Shown piece after piece: positions 1,210-50,650 of a stretch of 64,000 bases of DNA (the first letter of the stretch is position 1; every line of letters begins with the position of its first letter). The position numbers and the translations under genes are program-made. The notes under the pieces were generated by a model. It saw nothing but the letters and a program-made list of their open reading frames with translations. It had not been told where the DNA came from and did no database searches. The stretch comes from Mixta gaviniae (lineage in GTDB: Bacteria > Pseudomonadota > Gammaproteobacteria > Enterobacterales > Enterobacteriaceae): the NCBI RefSeq assembly GCF_002953195.1, contig NZ_CP026377.1, forward strand, positions 1,736,001 to 1,800,000, given 5' to 3'.

Positions 1210-1599
1210 ATGCAGCTACGTATCGCCAGACCGGTCAACGATTTACACCGCAGCCAGCAGCTCTACTGCCAGGGAATGGGTATGCAACTGCTGGGGGAGT
1301 TTAGCGATCATCAGGGGCACAGCGGCATTATGCTCGGCTACGCGGGCGAAAGCTGGCATCTCGAATTTACTCATTGCCTTCATCATCCGGCCGCGCCAGC
1401 CTCGACCGCGGAAGATTTGCTGGTGCTGTATCTGCCTGAGGAAGCGGTATGGCTGGCGCGTTGCGAAGCGATGCAGGCGGCGGGCTTCCGGACGATTACG
1501 CCCTTCAACCCTTACTGGGAAACCGCCGCCCGCACTTTTATCGATGAAGATGGCTACCGCACGGTAATACGTCTCGGCAGCTGGCCTGCGGTTAGCTGA
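1210..1599 (+). CDS. VOC-family (glyoxalase/dioxygenase fold) protein, YycE-like
   Basis: A 129-residue protein with one to two beta-alpha-beta-beta-beta units of the vicinal-oxygen-chelate fold. It opens MQLRIARPVNDLHRSQQLYC, the usual 'paired with a substrate' first strand, and ends with FIDEDGYRTVI, the family's closing 'DPDG' strand. An AGAGGGGAAAAGG Shine-Dalgarno lies just before the ATG. VOC proteins include glyoxalases, fosfomycin-resistance enzymes and uncharacterised members. Metal-ligand positions cannot be assigned with confidence, so no reaction is claimed. The gene is convergent with ariR and their 3' ends overlap by 8 nt. Confidence 0.75.
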   Translation: MQLRIARPVNDLHRSQQLYCQGMGMQLLGEFSDHQGHSGIMLGYAGESWHLEFTHCLHHPAAPASTAEDLLVLYLPEEAVWLARCEAMQAAGFRTITPFNPYWETAARTFIDEDGYRTVIRLGSWPAVS

Positions 1600-1852
1600 G
1601 GATATCGTCCTCAGTTTTATGCACCACCAGTTCCAGCACGTGACGATAAATATCCAGCGTCACCACGTCGCTTTCCAGCTCCAGGCGTTGGATCAGCTTA
1701 GTGATAATCGCTTTATTGTTTATCGGCTGACCCGCCTGGAGGATCTCGGCGACAACGGTGCCAAGAATTTCCATCTCATTAATCGCCGCGCTTTCCTGCT
1801 TATTAAAGTACTCAGCAATTTCCTTGTCGGTCTGGGGTGTCATAGTCTGCAT
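1592..1852 (-). CDS. ariR: AriR/YmgB-like biofilm and acid-resistance regulator
   Basis: An 86-residue, mostly helical, acidic protein. The core LGTVVAEILQAGQPINNKAI followed by LIQRLELESDVVTLDIYRHV lines up by eye with E. coli AriR (YmgB), a small dimer linked to biofilm formation and acid resistance in the Rcs and blue-light (BluR) circuits. The start at 1852 has GAGG about 6 nt upstream; an in-frame ATG at 1843 is an alternative. In E. coli ariR sits in the ycgZ-ymgA-ariR-ymgC operon. Here it stands alone, next to a candidate small RNA transcribed in the same direction from further upstream. The symbol is given by similarity; paralogues of this family exist, so exact orthology is unproven. 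Confidence 0.75.
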   Translation of the reverse strand: MQTMTPQTDKEIAEYFNKQESAAINEMEILGTVVAEILQAGQPINNKAIITKLIQRLELESDVVTLDIYRHVLELVVHKTEDDILS

Positions 1853-1987: not shown

Positions 1988-2034
1988 AAAAAAAACCTCT
2001 GAAGGTGGAAATCCGAGTTAAACACCTTCAGAGG
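1988..2034 (-). terminator. Strong intrinsic terminator on the minus strand
   Basis: Perfect 12-bp inverted repeat (arms 1996-2007 and 2023-2034) with a 15-nt loop. On the minus strand it is followed at once by eight T (complement of 1988-1995). The plus strand has no T run. It lies upstream of ariR, and the only annotated gene on the far side, the MarR gene, points away. It must therefore end a transcript that starts inside 2035-2580, which is the main reason for proposing a small RNA here. Confidence 0.85.
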
Positions 2035-2080
2035 CGACGCAAATGCATCATTCGTTACAGAGCCGTTATCTGGCTCAGCG
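1988..2080 (-). ncRNA. Candidate Hfq-type small RNA of about 93 nt with a DsrA-like rpoS-pairing motif
   Basis: Elements in order on the minus strand: -35 TTGTAC (2113-2108), 16-bp spacer, -10 TATAAC (2091-2086), predicted start near 2080. Then come a 5-bp hairpin (GAGCC 2076-2072 with GGCTC 2064-2060) and a single-stranded stretch starting UGUAACGAAU (2059-2050). The RNA ends with the 12-bp terminator stem and eight U. This is the usual layout of a trans-acting Hfq RNA. From memory, E. coli DsrA carries the same ten bases where it pairs with the rpoS leader. No coding frame of note exists within it. Promoter, ends and target are inferred. Confidence 0.6.
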
Positions 2081-2084
2081 GTAA

Positions 2085-2191
2085 AGTTATACAAAAAAAT
2101 CAAAGCTGTACAAAGAAAGCTTATACATTTTGTGCTATACGTTAAGAAACATATAGTTAACTAGGTAATTAATTATTCAAAAGCTATACAA
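2085..2191. repeat. Five degenerate copies of an AT-rich element upstream of the candidate small RNA
   Basis: On the minus strand the element reads TTGTATAGCTTT. Copies start at 2191 (exact), 2128 (ATGTATAAGCTTT), 2113 (TTGTACAGCTTT) and 2094 (TTGTATAACTTT), with a weaker ACGTATAGC at 2142. Two of them supply the -35 and -10 of the predicted small-RNA promoter. Such repetition before one promoter suggests iterated protein-binding sites or duplicated promoter elements. No known regulator consensus is recognised. Confidence 0.55.
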
Positions 2192-2583: not shown

Positions 2584-3012
2584 TTGGATCCTCAACAGCG
2601 TTTCTCCCGTCTGCTGCATCTCACCGCCCACGCCTGGCGTCTGGCAATCGATCGCCGCCTGAAAGAGAGCGGCCTCAGCATGAACAGCTGGCTGGCCGTG
2701 GCGACGCTGGCCAGCGAAAGCGAGCCTATGACGCAAAAAGCACTGGCGCAGGTGCTGGGCCTGGAGGAGGCGAGCGTGGTGCCGCTGGTAGATCGGCTGG
2801 TGGCGCAGCGGCTGATCGAACGTTCGCAGCCGGAGGAGGATCGCCGTAAACGCCTGCTGCTGGTCACCGGGCAGGGCAAGGCGCTTTTCGAGCGGGTAAA
2901 AGTCGAGACGGATCGGCTGCGCGGCGAGCTGCTGGCGGATATCGATCGGGATGAGCTGGCGATAGCCCAACGGGTATTGCAGCAGCTGCTGGATAAGACA
3001 GGAACACTCTGA
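2584..3012 (+). CDS. MarR-family regulator of the adjacent efflux operon
   Basis: A 142-residue winged-helix repressor starting at TTG 2584, with AGGTG 8 nt upstream. The helix-turn-helix covers MTQKALAQVLGLEEASVVPL and LVDRLVAQRLIERSQ, and the wing is PEEDRRKRLLLVTGQG, with the conserved D-R-R pattern of the family. Flanking helices form the dimer interface. MarR proteins usually leave DNA when they bind phenolic or lipophilic compounds. The gene is one nucleotide from the downstream MFS gene (stop 3012, start 3014), so it is co-transcribed with the pump and probably represses the whole operon. The ligand is unknown. Confidence 0.88.
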   Translation: MDPQQRFSRLLHLTAHAWRLAIDRRLKESGLSMNSWLAVATLASESEPMTQKALAQVLGLEEASVVPLVDRLVAQRLIERSQPEEDRRKRLLLVTGQGKALFERVKVETDRLRGELLADIDRDELAIAQRVLQQLLDKTGTL

Positions 3013-3013
3013 C

Positions 3014-4702
3014 GTGGCGAAATCAAATCCCTACGCGCCGCGCCAGTGGCAGCCGCATGAAAAGCCGATGCTGCCCGGCTCGCCTTCAACGCCACTGCAT
3101 CCTGCCCGCAAACGCATCGCCTTCGGGCTGGTTGGCCTGCTGATCACCCTGACCGGCGCGCTCAGCAATGCGCTGGTGACCGCCAACCTGACCAACCTGC
3201 AGGGAACCTTTGGCGCCTATTCCAACGAAATCGCCTGGCTGCCGGCGGTGTATGTGATGGGCAATATCTCCATCAACCTGCTGCTGGTGAAATTTCGCCA
3301 GCAGTTCGGCCTGCGCATTTTTACCGAAGCCTTTTTATTGCTCTATGTGCTGGTGGCCTTTTTCCATCTCTTCGTGAACGATCTCAGCTCGGCGATTATC
3401 GTGCGCGCCGCTCACGGTATGGTGGCGGCCGCGCTGAGTTCGCTGGGCATCTATTATCAGGTACAGGCATGGCCGGCGAAGCACCGTCTCAAGGCGCTGG
3501 CGATCGGCATCGGCGGGTCGCAGCTGGCGATACCGCTGGCGCGGCTGTTTTCATCTGAGCTGCTGCAGCTGGAGGAGTGGCGCGGCCTCTATCTGTTTGA
3601 GCTGGGTCTGGCGGTGGTAGCGCTGGGCTGTGTGCTGATGTTGAAACTGCCGCCCAGCGATCGCAGCAAGGTGTTCGAAAAGATGGATTTTCTCACCTTT
3701 ATCTTAATGGCGCCGGGCATGGCGCTGCTCTGCGGCGTGCTGTCGCTGGGGCGCATTGAGTGGTGGTTTTCTACCCCCTGGCTCGGCATCGGGCTGGCGC
3801 TGTCGCTGCTGTTGATCGTCAGCGCGGTGGTGCTGGAGCATAACCGCGCCAATCCGCTGATCAATACACGCTGGCTGGGCAGCGGGGCGATCGTCAGGCT
3901 GGGCATTGTTATGATTATGATGCGCGTGGTGCTGGCGGAGCAGAATACCGGCGCGATCGGCTTTTTGCAGCAGGTGGGGTTAATCAACGATCAGCTGCAT
4001 GGCCTGGCGCTGGCGATCGTCAGCGGTGTGGCGCTGGGTATCGCCGCCAGCGCGCTGACCCTGAAGCCCGCGCATTTCAGCTGGCCGATCGTCACTTCGC
4101 TGTTGATTATGATGGTCGCCTCGCTGATGGATGCCAACGCCAACCCGCAGACCCGTCCGCAGGATATGTACCTCAGCCAGTTTCTGCTCGGCTTCAGTAG
4201 TTCGTTCTTTATGGCACCCGCCATGTTGTTGGGCATCGGCAGCGTTGTCGCCCAGCCGAAAAACCTGGTGAGCTTTGTGGTGCTGTTCGGGATGAGCCAA
4301 AACCTGGGCGGCCTGATCGGCTCGGCGATGCTGGGTACCTTTCAGATCTGGCGTGAAAAATATCACTCCAGCCTGCTGGGCGATCGGCTTTCGCTGCTCG
4401 ATCCCAACGTTACCGATCGTCTGAGTCAGTACAGCAGCCTGTTCGGCAGCCAGCTGAACGACGCCACGCTGCTTAGCGCGCAGGCGGTCGCTCAGCTGCA
4501 GACTGTCGCCACGCTACAGGCCAACGTGCTGGCCTGGAATGACACCTATTTACTGACCGCCGGCATGGCGTTCTGCACCCTGGTCTGGGTGCTGTATCGC
4601 CTGACGCGTCAGCGTATCCTTACCCGACGCCAGCAGCAGCGTGACGCCGCCGCTGTGGCGCAATCTGTTCCGGCAACCGCTGAAAGCATGGAGAAACAAT
4701 GA
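3014..4702 (+). CDS. MFS drug efflux pump (DHA2/EmrB-like), inner-membrane part of a tripartite system
   Basis: A 562-residue major-facilitator protein, the length of the 14-helix DHA2 group. After a proline-rich cytoplasmic start (about residues 1-35) come hydrophobic segments such as IAFGLVGLLITLTGALSNAL and WLPAVYVMGNISINLLLV. A basic C-terminal tail (RLTRQRILTRRQQQR) follows the last helix. It would drive proton-coupled export of amphipathic compounds across the inner membrane and pass them to the adaptor encoded next. GTG at 3014 is used because it follows the marR stop closely and AGGA lies about 10 nt upstream. The 3' end overlaps the adaptor gene by 4 nt (ATGA). The substrate is not predictable, and the protein is not a close EmrB. 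Confidence 0.85.
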   Translation: MAKSNPYAPRQWQPHEKPMLPGSPSTPLHPARKRIAFGLVGLLITLTGALSNALVTANLTNLQGTFGAYSNEIAWLPAVYVMGNISINLLLVKFRQQFGLRIFTEAFLLLYVLVAFFHLFVNDLSSAIIVRAAHGMVAAALSSLGIYYQVQAWPAKHRLKALAIGIGGSQLAIPLARLFSSELLQLEEWRGLYLFELGLAVVALGCVLMLKLPPSDRSKVFEKMDFLTFILMAPGMALLCGVLSLGRIEWWFSTPWLGIGLALSLLLIVSAVVLEHNRANPLINTRWLGSGAIVRLGIVMIMMRVVLAEQNTGAIGFLQQVGLINDQLHGLALAIVSGVALGIAASALTLKPAHFSWPIVTSLLIMMVASLMDANANPQTRPQDMYLSQFLLGFSSSFFMAPAMLLGIGSVVAQPKNLVSFVVLFGMSQNLGGLIGSAMLGTFQIWREKYHSSLLGDRLSLLDPNVTDRLSQYSSLFGSQLNDATLLSAQAVAQLQTVATLQANVLAWNDTYLLTAGMAFCTLVWVLYRLTRQRILTRRQQQRDAAAVAQSVPATAESMEKQ

Positions 4703-5790
4703 GTCAGCAGGAAGAAATCAAAGCCGCAGAGCGCGAGCGCACTAACAAACGCCGCATTCTCTCCGTCGCCGTCGGCAGCGGCATTGTGATCGTCGGCGTG
4801 TTGATCATCCTTTACGCCTGGCAGCTCTGGCCTTTTACCAGCGCGGTGCAAAGCACCGAGAATGCCTACGTGCGCGGTCAGGTGACCTTTATCAGCCCGC
4901 AGGTCAGCGGCTACGTCACGGCGGTCAATGTGCAGGATCTGCAGCCGGTACATAAAGGCGAGGTGCTGATGACCATTGACGATCGCATTTACCGCCAGCG
5001 CGTCGAGCAGGCGAAAGCGCAGCTGGCGATCAAGCAGGCGGCGCTGGCCAATAACCAGCAGCAGCGGCGTAGCGCCGAGGCGGTGATCGCCCGTAACCAG
5101 GCCGCGCTGGAAAACGCCAGGGCGCAGGCGGTGAAAAGCGGTTTCGACCTGAAGCGCGTGGAGAACCTGGTGGCGGACGGCTCGCTGTCGATCCGCGAAC
5201 GCGACGCGGCACGCGCCGCCAACAGCCAGGCCGTGGCCGCCGTGCAGCAGGCGAAAGCGACTGTGGATGTCTCGCGCCAGGATCTGCAGACGGTGATTGT
5301 TAACCGCGGCTCGCTGGAGGCGGACGTCGCTAACGCCGAAGCGGCGCTGCGCCTGGCGCAGATCGATCTGGACAATACGCGTATCATCGCTCCGGAAGAG
5401 GGACAGCTGGGGCAGATCGCAATGCGGCGCGGCGCTTACGTTTCGGCGGGCACGCGCCTGACGTCGCTGGTGCCGGCGCAGAAATGGGTGATCGCCAATA
5501 TGAAAGAGACGCAGATGGCCAACGTACGTCCCGGTCTGCCGGTCACTTTTAGCGTCGATGCGCTAAACGGCGCGACCTTCCACGGCGTGGTGCAATATAT
5601 CTCGCCGGCGGCGGGCTCGGAATTCAGCGCCATCTCGCCCGATAACGCCACCGGCAACTTTGTCAAAATCGCCCAGCGTATTCCTGTGCGTATCAAAATC
5701 AACGACAACGAGCAGGCACGCCTGCGTCCGGGCATGTCGGTGCAGGTCAGCATCGATACCTCGGCCGCACCGGTGGAGGAGCAGCGATGA
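4699..5790 (+). CDS. HlyD/EmrA-family periplasmic adaptor of the efflux system
   Basis: A 363-residue membrane-fusion protein. One N-terminal membrane anchor (about residues 20-42, ending YAWQLWPF) is followed by the first lipoyl half-motif (STENAYVRGQVTFISPQVSG). A long alanine- and glutamine-rich coiled coil (about 95-210), the second half-motif (DNTRIIAPEEGQLGQI) and a beta-barrel domain follow. It bridges the MFS pump and the outer-membrane channel. Start and stop codons overlap those of both neighbours by 4 nt, a strong sign of translational coupling and a fixed complex. Confidence 0.9.
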   Translation: MSQQEEIKAAERERTNKRRILSVAVGSGIVIVGVLIILYAWQLWPFTSAVQSTENAYVRGQVTFISPQVSGYVTAVNVQDLQPVHKGEVLMTIDDRIYRQRVEQAKAQLAIKQAALANNQQQRRSAEAVIARNQAALENARAQAVKSGFDLKRVENLVADGSLSIRERDAARAANSQAVAAVQQAKATVDVSRQDLQTVIVNRGSLEADVANAEAALRLAQIDLDNTRIIAPEEGQLGQIAMRRGAYVSAGTRLTSLVPAQKWVIANMKETQMANVRPGLPVTFSVDALNGATFHGVVQYISPAAGSEFSAISPDNATGNFVKIAQRIPVRIKINDNEQARLRPGMSVQVSIDTSAAPVEEQR

Positions 5791-7163
5791 GCGGACGCCG
5801 ACTGCGCGCGCTGGCGCTGCTGATCCCGCTGCTGGCCGGCTGCGCCACCGAAGTGGAAAAGGCGCCTTCCTCGCTGCCGATGCCGCCGCAGTGGCGCAAT
5901 CAGGTCGGGCCGACGGCCGCGCCGGAAGCCAACTGGTGGCGCGCCTTCGCCGATCCCGATCTTAACCGGCTGGTTGAGCAGGCGCTGCGCAATAATCCCG
6001 ATATCCTTACCGCACGCGCCCGCGTCGATCAATATCGCGCGCAGCTGCGCGCTGCGACGGGCGATAACTTCCCCACGCTGGACGCCGGCGTCGGCGTGAC
6101 GCGCGCGCGCTCGCTCTCGGCGGCCACCGGGGCGCCGCATGACGGCACGGTTTATCAGGGGCTGCTACAGGCGAATTATGAGGTTGATCTCTGGGGCTCG
6201 CGCAGCAGCAGCATCGACGCGGCACGCGCCTCGCTGGCGGCGCAGCAGGCGGCGGCGGCGGCGGCTGAGTTGACCATCGCCACCTCGGTTGCCTCCGGCT
6301 ATATGACGCTGTTAGCGCTGGATGAGCAGCTGCGCGTCACCCAGGCGACGCTGGCGACGCGGGAAAACTCGCTTAATCTGGCGCAGCGCCAGTTCGAAGC
6401 GGGCTATACCTCACGGCTGGAGTGGATGCAGGCGGCGTCGGAATATCAGGCGGCGAAGGCGCAGATCCCGCAGCTGACGCACCAGATCCGCCAGCAGGAG
6501 AACGCGCTGAGCATTCTGGTGGGCATGAATCCGCGCCATATCGCGCGCCAGTCGCGCTTTACGAAGGTGATGCCGCAGCGCATGCCGTCGCTGCTGCCGT
6601 CGCAACTGCTGCAGCGTCGGCCGGATATCGTGCAGGCGCAGCGTCAGCTGCTGGCGGCCGACCGCTCGCTCGCCTCGTCGCAGGCGCAGCTGCTGCCGTC
6701 GCTGAATCTTACCGCCTCCGGCACGCTGCAAACCTCGGTGCTGCATCAGCTGGTGGATAATCCTTTCCGCCTCTGGAGCGTCGGCGGCAGCGTGCTGGCG
6801 CCGTTGCTGAACCGCGAGGCGCTAACGGCACAGGTCGACGTATCGATGGCTACGCGCAATCAGGCGCTCTATGGCTATGAGAAAGTGGTGCGCAACGCCT
6901 TCAGTGAGGTAAACGACGCGCTCGATGCCATCGAACAGACGCAGGCGCAGCTGCAGGAAGTGGAAAAGCAGCAGGAGATTGCTGCCGACACGCTGCGCAT
7001 CGCCCGCAACCGCTATCAAAACGGCTACGCCTCCTATCTTGACGAGCTGGACGCGCAGCGTACCCTGTTCAGCGCGCAGCTGAATGTGGTACAGCTGAAA
7101 AATACCCTGCTGCAGGCGCAAATCGATCTCTACCGCGCGCTGGGCGGCGGCTGGCAGCCGTAA
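5787..7163 (+). CDS. NodT/OprM-family outer-membrane efflux lipoprotein
   Basis: A 458-residue outer-membrane factor with a lipoprotein signal: basic start, hydrophobic run and the lipobox LLAGC with the acylated Cys at residue 19. Two tandem OEP repeats (about 55-245 and 265-450) form the beta-barrel and periplasmic alpha-barrel of a trimeric channel. The family motifs NWWRAFADPDLNRLVEQAL, YEVDLWG and LLQRRPDIVQAQRQLLAADR are all present. With the two upstream genes it completes a self-contained three-part exporter, so this operon need not borrow TolC. No U-rich terminator follows directly, and GC-rich hairpins occur at about 7184-7220. Confidence 0.92.
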   Translation: MSGRRLRALALLIPLLAGCATEVEKAPSSLPMPPQWRNQVGPTAAPEANWWRAFADPDLNRLVEQALRNNPDILTARARVDQYRAQLRAATGDNFPTLDAGVGVTRARSLSAATGAPHDGTVYQGLLQANYEVDLWGSRSSSIDAARASLAAQQAAAAAAELTIATSVASGYMTLLALDEQLRVTQATLATRENSLNLAQRQFEAGYTSRLEWMQAASEYQAAKAQIPQLTHQIRQQENALSILVGMNPRHIARQSRFTKVMPQRMPSLLPSQLLQRRPDIVQAQRQLLAADRSLASSQAQLLPSLNLTASGTLQTSVLHQLVDNPFRLWSVGGSVLAPLLNREALTAQVDVSMATRNQALYGYEKVVRNAFSEVNDALDAIEQTQAQLQEVEKQQEIAADTLRIARNRYQNGYASYLDELDAQRTLFSAQLNVVQLKNTLLQAQIDLYRALGGGWQP

Positions 7164-50078: not shown

Positions 50079-50650
50079 CGTAACGTACTCGTTATTCTTA
50101 CGTGAGTGACTAAGCTGCGGGCTAAGTAACACTGGACGAAGAATAACCGACGGCCCCGTGTCTTATCGCGTCAGCGTCAACCTCACGGTTGTCGGTCGCT
50201 CAAGGGGCGCAAAAATCTCGGCAGCCTGTTTTTATAAGGAAAAACAGCGCTCGGATGAGGGAACCGCCACTGAATTTACCAGAGAGAGTCAATCCCGTCT
50301 TATCGTCCAGGCTGCAACCCGCAGCCCGCTAAATGCCTGATTTCACAATACGTCTTACGCCATTGCTGCGTGTATGTGCTATCCGGCAAAATTTCTTAAT
50401 TCGCTATTTATGGTTTCCTGGCGGTAGGCAGCCAGAAGACCGAGCCATTATTCCATTGCTAACCTTGTTATAGCAAGGTGACTTTTCATTACTGATAAAC
50501 TTTCTTGCAGCATTACGCATTCATTTTGCAGGCTTTTTCACCACCTCCCTGAGAAAGCGGGGAACAGGCCGCAAAATTGGCGGTACGCTGTCAGTTAAGC
50601 ACAGAAAAAGAAGTGGCGCTATTATCCGCCACTCATTAGAATCGCCGACC
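50079..50650. promoter_or_regulatory. Divergent rne-rluC intergenic region holding the rne 5' leader
   Basis: 572 bp without a gene. In E. coli the rne mRNA has a leader of about 360 nt whose hairpins let RNase E repress its own synthesis. The space here is enough for the same arrangement. I can see one clear stem (CTGTTTTT and AAAAACAG, about 50227-50250) and a CCTTG-CAAGG stem near 50463-50478, but cannot identify the regulatory hairpin by eye. The rluC promoter must lie in the last 150 bp. Confidence 0.55.

Follow-up and report, generated by a model that had tools for sequence, protein, structure and literature searches.

Two small RNAs (sRNAs) of E. coli, DsrA (RF00014) and RprA (RF00034), are the closest described systems. 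DsrA is an RNA of about 90 nt with an intrinsic terminator, and it carries two motifs that pair with the rpoS leader, GAUUUCC followed by GUAACGAAU; this order allows one collinear duplex. RprA pairs with the same leader through an ACGAAU core and sits in the Rcs/YmgB circuit: according to PMC3465796, YmgB acts through Rcs and Rcs activates RprA. The regulator MlrA has a site at csgD, given in PMC3509220 as AAAGTTGTACA(12N)TGCACAATTTT, which was located in the K-12 sequence (L149, 1958-1991). According to the same paper, the MlrA paralogue BluR is a repressor that binds GTACA motifs over the -35 element and the spacer of the ycgZ promoter.

A stretch of Mixta gaviniae DNA of 64 kb, called the window here, has features that resemble parts of these systems. 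The features concerned are all on the minus strand:

2179..2191, minus strand: further half-site TTGTATAGCTTTT, upstream of the promoter
2082..2113, minus strand: promoter TTGTAC-N16-TATAAC inside the dyad TTGTAC-N14-TGTATAACTTT, which resembles the MlrA operator
2113-2108, minus strand: promoter -35 element TTGTAC
2091-2086, minus strand: promoter -10 element TATAAC, after a 16-nt spacer
1988..2080, minus strand: small RNA gene with a predicted transcript of about 93 nt (sequence, fold, 8/8 Mixta, covariance model matches)
2060..2076, minus strand: stem-loop 1, 5' hairpin GAGCC/GGCTC (sequence, fold)
2050..2059, minus strand: UGUAACGAAU, predicted rpoS-pairing seed 1 (sequence, fold, conservation, own rpoS leader)
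2036..2049, minus strand: stem-loop 2, GAUGC-AUUU-GCGUC, covarying
1988..2034, minus strand: intrinsic terminator, with a covarying 12-bp stem at 2034-1996 and eight T at 1995-1988
2008..2015, minus strand: terminator loop CGGAUUUC, predicted rpoS-pairing seed 2, complement of GAAAUCCG
1592..1852, minus strand: ymgB/ariR-like connector gene, directly downstream of the RNA on the same strand (Pfam PF10798, E 2.6e-27)

The initial annotation had proposed a 93-nt RNA with a promoter, a 5' hairpin, an unpaired UGUAACGAAU and a terminator, and all of these were found as described on the minus strand (2080-1988). It had missed the second small hairpin (GAUGC/GCGUC, 2049-2036). The terminator reads CCUCUGAAGGUG-(15-nt loop UUUAACUCGGAUUUC)-CACCUUCAGAGG-U8. 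The predicted fold of the 93-mer has an energy of -36.8 kcal/mol, against -20.5 +/- 3.0 for shuffled sequences (z -5.5; none of 200 shuffles was as good). In this fold the terminator loop is unpaired, only the first G of GUAACGAAU is paired, and of UGUAACGAAU only the first two bases are. A simple promoter/terminator scan of the window reported neither the promoter nor the terminator of the RNA, because TTGTAC holds only three of the six consensus bases and the scan accepts loops up to 8. The motif GTAACGAAT by itself is not rare (one in the window, 0.36 expected), so the significance of the gene lies in its conservation and covariation. Its own promoter, an intrinsic terminator with a long U tail and an intergenic site are, as far as sequence alone can tell, the features of an Hfq-dependent trans-encoded sRNA.

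With Rfam 15 at gathering score, the window gave a single match, the RNase E 5' UTR element rne5 (50103-50428, minus strand, 210.7 bits), and none at the RNA locus. Around the RNA no match was obtained up to E 5, the DsrA and RprA models included, nor was one obtained at the RNA in 13 related loci scanned. The family is absent from Rfam 15 in these scans of window, locus and related loci, in keeping with the earlier description of the sRNA as unannotated. A literature search, whose reach ended before the supplement sequences of the Pantoea ananatis sRNA catalogue (PMC6749038), did not find it either. That catalogue lists 16 novel Hfq-dependent sRNAs, one of which may be a member. Next to the sRNA lies an apparent tripartite efflux set (window 2584-7163, plus strand): a MarR-like regulator, then an apparent MFS pump, a membrane-fusion protein and an outer-membrane lipoprotein, the pump names coming from a reading of the translations.

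BLAST across relatives and covariation in the stems had been proposed as checks on the original claim, and both came out in its favour. Among 40 genomes, the window's own included, the locus was found by BLAST in 8/8 Mixta and in none of 32 other relatives, with hairpins and motif kept. The 72 nt from core to terminator are almost identical across the eight Mixta; stem-loop 1 and the region of the promoter are more variable. Mixta genomes usually carry paralogues and keep two or three copies of the family: besides the window locus (A), locus B is present in three Mixta genomes, and a fourth keeps a decayed remnant of it; locus C was found in the genome of the window, and locus D in four genomes. 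The own genome has three copies. In 16 aligned Mixta copies AACGAA is kept and GGAUUU is invariant in the terminator loop while the stems differ.

Covariation was assessed in two alignments. The wide one held 45 sequences (39 distinct), namely 25 non-Mixta genome matches, 16 Mixta copies and four Pantoea megaplasmid copies. In it 13 of the 17 pairs changed on both sides and 96.5% of 655 cells were paired, against at most 47.8% when the partners were slid; these counts lean towards structure, since the alignment was fitted to the model. A MAFFT alignment of the Mixta copies (11 distinct rows) had 95.2% of 187 cells paired. Eight of the 17 pairs changed on both sides, a number reached by 8/500 shuffles, and 21 cells changed on both sides, a number reached by none of 500; the 13 further pair types were not above shuffles (mean 15.4). 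With regard to a possible small ORF in the RNA, loop lengths shift the reading frames between copies while the stems covary. We hold with high confidence that the gene and its family are real.

Of the 392 genomes of the GTDB family scanned with a covariance model of the sRNA core (R1), 50 gave matches, the weakest of them doubtful, with up to four copies per genome (G261, 59 to 84 bits). Many of the 50 genomes have only matches of 27 to 47 bits; the matches read individually were those of at least 47.9 bits, plus L067. Matches below about 40 bits are distrusted because L067 (38 bits, no core or promoter) is a remnant and L173 (34 bits with model R2) has no core. L067 (G006:C1:3293331-3293403) is a decayed copy beside iraP that has kept its terminator and lost promoter and core. 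Across the whole order 6/394 genomes matched, all from the same GTDB family. Both large scans used stricter filters, with which weak matches can be lost. Because some of its genomes have an MlrA 98% identical to that of E. coli, the scanned family evidently corresponds to the broad GTDB Enterobacteriaceae. Members also occur on Pantoea megaplasmids and in lambdoid prophages. A search of phages and E. coli genomes with the copies L109 and L117 found nothing. A FourU thermometer is found about 200 to 270 nt downstream of the distant copies L111 and L115, and in L111 an Hsp20 gene (Pfam) comes after it. Both copies have a TGAGAA-TCTCA palindrome upstream, which resembles an RcsB box.

The promoter region was examined across the family. 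In 35/54 copies the promoter lies within a dyad, TTGTACA-N13-TGTATAASTTT, that is similar to the operator of MlrA in E. coli. It was scored with the motif TTGTAC-N-TGTATAASTTT taken from the window copy, and at the threshold of 14/17 it was reached by these 35 of 54 upstream regions and by 5 of 1080 shuffles; the eight Mixta locus A copies in this count are non-independent, and the doubtful L173 is among the 35. The gap is 14 in 32 of the 35 and 13 in three. L062, L065 and L101 read exactly AAAGTTGTACA-N13-TGTATAACTTT, and the left half of the window copy reads TTTGTACA. Among the 19 copies without a good dyad are all four from locus D and the distant ones linked to prophages or to Hsp20; in the own genome, a GTACA dyad at the promoter was present at the window copy and not at locus D. 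Half-sites with at most one mismatch number three in the 64-kb window, all upstream of the RNA (0.11 expected). In the whole own genome four dyad sites with at most one mismatch were found, at sRNA A, sRNA C, mlrA and the start of ybgA-phr, and the backwards control pattern found none.

The candidate regulator was looked for in the same genomes. An mlrA orthologue is present in 8/8 Mixta (the one scanned with Pfam gave MlrA_C at E 2.1e-38) and lies in one frame in seven. In the window's own strain it is split between two frames near residue 170 (G000:C1:1548526-1549238), either a real disruption or an assembly error. In the four Mixta first read, TGTACA-N13-TGTACA stands upstream of mlrA in three (L181-L183, not L184), and a genus-wide pattern search allowing one mismatch placed the dyad 64 or 65 bases from the mlrA match in 8/8. 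By hand count, an MlrA/BluR-type protein (E <1e-40) is encoded in 49/50 sRNA genomes and in 114/342 others (Fisher 5e-20, relatedness ignored). Taken together, these sequence data make control of the sRNA by an MlrA/BluR-type protein likely.

Similar sites were seen elsewhere. The same dyad stands at the start of ybgA-phr, a photolyase gene (G000:C1:1430892-1430918 and L251-L255; five Mixta loci read), which puts a light-repair gene beside a BluR/MlrA-type site; similar dyads appear in two more genomes. In the bluR-bluF interval of E. coli K-12, a pair of TGTACA-N14/16-TGTACA dyads is found just upstream of bluR (L148:1594-1641), an arrangement that suggests self-control of bluR, as predicted for Mixta mlrA. 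A different palindrome, TGGTNNNACCA, occurs about 85-91 nt before the core in L066, L072, L077, L078, L099, L104, L062 and L063; presumably it is of the GntR/FadR/PdhR type. At 7 or 8 of 8 positions it was found in 9/53 upstream regions against 92/2120 shuffles, eight of the nine near -85 to -91 and one at -26.

Two kinds of gene recur next to the sRNA. In the own genome, with six YmgB-domain matches in 4.5 Mb, each of the three sRNA copies is followed immediately, on its own strand, by a gene with this domain. The profile was built from E. coli YcgZ, YmgA, AriR and YmgC and the window protein. With it, a ymgB-like gene was found downstream in 33 of 51 sites, which include near-identical Mixta and Pantoea copies and L173, and in 28 of the 33 it lies within 140 nt or overlaps (longest frame). 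Such an arrangement could also be that of a cis element, a leader and attenuator of ymgB in which translation or a trans RNA overcomes the terminator. This explanation is improbable: near the other 18 copies no ymgB-like gene was found, the stem is followed by a T-rich tail, and a cis leader has no need of a complement to rpoS. Five of the 18 copies are next to or near iraP, and these face iraP on the opposite strand, which also counts against a cis element; Mixta locus B and L098 end against it, and in L097 it lies beyond one small ORF. The iraP assignment has a Pfam E of 4.2e-21 or better at five intact copies and the remnant. IraP is, in its Pfam description, an anti-adaptor for sigma-S stabilisation.

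The target was sought in the rpoS leader of the same genome, which contains GAAAUUCGUUACAAGGGGAAAUCCGUC. UGUAACGAAU complements AUUCGUUACA in it and the loop CGGAUUUC complements GAAAUCCG, the two segments being 5 nt apart. The DsrA-type pairing core of the initial annotation accordingly has its complement, AUUCGUUACAAGGGGAAAUCCGU, in the own strain's leader, and the complementarity of the terminator loop is also present there, non-collinear as noted, with the motif order opposite to that of DsrA. Complementarity to the inhibitory arm of the leader, as expected of an rpoS-activating sRNA, was found within one genome. The two unpaired motifs, GUAACGAAU and the loop GGAUUUC, are mostly kept across the family: the loop motif G[GA][AG]UUU[CU] is present in 42 of 49 wider copies scanned, and pairing is kept by wobble with GUAAUGAAU in L112 and L113 and with GGGUUUC loops in L106, L108, L110, L113 and L117. 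Broken seeds are seen in L180 (GUAACGGAU), L117 (GUAACGAUU, ending in GAUU), L101 (loop GGAAUUU) and L114 (no loop motif). On the leader side, 16 of the 30 rpoS loci compared, 8/8 Mixta included, have ATTCGTTACA ahead of the gene; since the segment AUUCGUUAC is part of the coding sequence of nlpD, its conservation is partly coding. Further pairing between leader AAGGGG and bases 5' of the core was not significant in 40 distinct sequences (38/500 shuffles reach the sum); L173 and L180, in which the core pattern AA[CT]GA is absent, were left out of the 51 sites. Single striking extensions are CCCUUGUAACGAAU in L097 and CCUUG-AACGAAU in four iraP copies.

Start regions of the own genome were ranked as targets; the 370 sampled were that of rpoS and 369 others taken from 464 kb. 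By hybrid energy rpoS ranked 14, 46 and 8 of 370 for the three own-genome copies and 5th on the sum; this ranking alone is moderate evidence for rpoS. Between four (sum) and 45 (copy C) other start regions stand above it, as they might if the sRNA family is real and trans-acting, rpoS is a minor or accidental target and the seeds serve other mRNAs, for example biofilm or envelope genes of the MlrA regulon. A known sRNA of rpoS, RprA, has csgD and ydaM as further targets, which it represses (PMC3465796). We consider this explanation unlikely. The 9-mer ATTCGTTAC occurs only in rpoS among the 370 start regions, and no other of them combines ATTCGTTAC with GAAATCC; the two unpaired motifs that are conserved match neighbouring leader segments that DsrA uses too; and the neighbours iraP and ymgB are sigma-S related. 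rpoS is likely to be a main target, a view we hold almost as firmly as that on the regulator.

The direction of the effect was approached through the predicted leader fold, in which both segments lie within the hairpin holding the ribosome-binding site (RBS). Mean predicted RBS openness rose from 0.40 to 0.57 or 0.56 when either segment was barred from pairing, against 0.50 for the best control window. The seed could also occupy the leader and repress or sponge it, for instance in competition with RprA or ArcZ, and some sRNAs do repress rpoS (OxyS and CyaR, PMC11331407); as pairing would engage the inhibitory side of the hairpin and not the RBS, repression seems very improbable. Activation by an anti-antisense route is our best guess.

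We give a probability of about 0.66 to the reading that the RNA is an MlrA/BluR-regulated, DsrA-like activator of rpoS translation with its two pairing motifs in reversed order. An MlrA/BluR-type MerR protein would bind the dyad over the promoter and set transcription of the sRNA, and the transcript would stop at its own terminator. The product would be a trans-acting, probably Hfq-dependent sRNA of the new family. Its unpaired GUAACGAAU would pair with AUUCGUUAC in the rpoS leader, and GGAUUUC of the terminator loop could make a second contact with GAAAUCC. Since AUUCGUUAC and GAAAUCC help to hold the RBS in the hairpin, pairing should free the RBS and raise sigma-S, by anti-antisense activation as for DsrA and RprA. 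With the motif order reversed, a simultaneous two-site duplex would be knotted; the likely form would be seed pairing by GUAACGAAU, the loop serving as an alternative, as a kissing second contact or as the contact of a second molecule. The linked ymgB or iraP would push sigma-S the same way by other routes.

The relation to DsrA itself was examined in the genomes. The locus is not that of dsrA, as had been noted: E. coli dsrA lies between yodD and yedP, and the window RNA has ymgB-like and MarR-like neighbours. The DsrA model found 0/8 Mixta and four other genomes of the 40, two of them over cut-off. In the family it was found in 114/392 genomes, among them 20 of the 50 with the new sRNA, which indicates that the two are not mutually exclusive (Fisher p 0.09, in the direction of co-occurrence). 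In genomes with matches of at least 61 bits, DsrA is present in only 3/23. Replacement of DsrA was considered as a general rule and is unsupported, this low share and the absence from Mixta notwithstanding. Of the suggestion of an independent or displaced activator, what is supported is an uncatalogued sRNA with a DsrA-type rpoS-pairing core. A displaced or rearranged dsrA gene would account for the same two rpoS-pairing motifs; it is rejected for the lack of an Rfam match and the presence of both RNAs in 20/50 genomes, is contradicted by the reversed motifs and different stems as well, and is left with next to no probability. RprA is present in 8/8 Mixta, with the own-genome match elsewhere (G000:C1:2086900-2087009). 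In the four genomes read its core is GAAGAAUUGC where E. coli has AACGAAUUGC. Mixta seems to have one classical pairing RNA absent and the other with an altered core, and to have kept the new family.

Copies in mobile DNA were also read. Nine IMG/VR stretches (L197-L205) carry the RNA, six of them near-identical, and in seven (these six and L202) a YmgB-like gene is just downstream. From a reading of the translations, the sRNA and YmgB-like pair of L203 lies between terminase and lysis genes. The layout of L085, a prophage region of a Pantoea plasmid, is similar, and no more than about 500 nt separate L109 and L117 from an Rz and an endolysin gene. Judged by this gene order, the prophage copies near lysis or terminase genes are moron-like. 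A more far-reaching reading, which we offer tentatively and think rather doubtful, is a mobile cassette of an MlrA/BluR-controlled sRNA with YmgB or IraP, spread by duplication and as a moron of lambdoid prophages, that would couple biofilm/c-di-GMP or blue-light signals directly to sigma-S through a reversed-order, two-contact opening of rpoS.

What is new here is an uncatalogued small regulatory RNA family in Mixta, Pantoea, related bacteria and some of their viruses. If the proposed function is true, RpoS has another sRNA input, one RNA links the MlrA/BluR signalling branch to sigma-S, and there is an explanation of how rpoS could stay under sRNA control in lineages that lack DsrA. The reversed motifs, one of them in a terminator loop, offer a clean test of how strict topology is in anti-antisense activation. 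For the copies in prophages one may ask what a phage gains from a switch that acts on the stress regulator of its host.

Compared with known systems, the new RNA resembles DsrA in carrying both rpoS-leader pairing motifs, in its length and in its intrinsic terminator. It differs in stems, promoter and loci, gives no RF00014 match, and has GUAACGAAU first and GGAUUUC in the terminator loop. With E. coli RprA it shares an ACGAAU core against the same leader and a YmgB connection; there is no match in sequence or structure, and the predicted regulator is of the MlrA/BluR type, not RcsB. The E. coli MlrA and BluR regulons (csgD; ycgZ-ymgAB) have the same GTACA half-sites and YmgB connector genes, whereas the predicted output here includes an sRNA, which the accessible part of PMC3509220 does not mention for these regulons, and the half-sites are N13 apart against N12 at csgD. 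The putative cassette would join a seed and a kissing terminator loop in two contacts, where DsrA forms a single collinear duplex. OmrA/OmrB and Qrr are multi-copy sRNA sets and, like the present family, place several similar sRNAs with a shared seed in one genome; unlike them, the new family has its copies at dispersed sites, linked to ymgB or iraP, and some of them are carried by phages.
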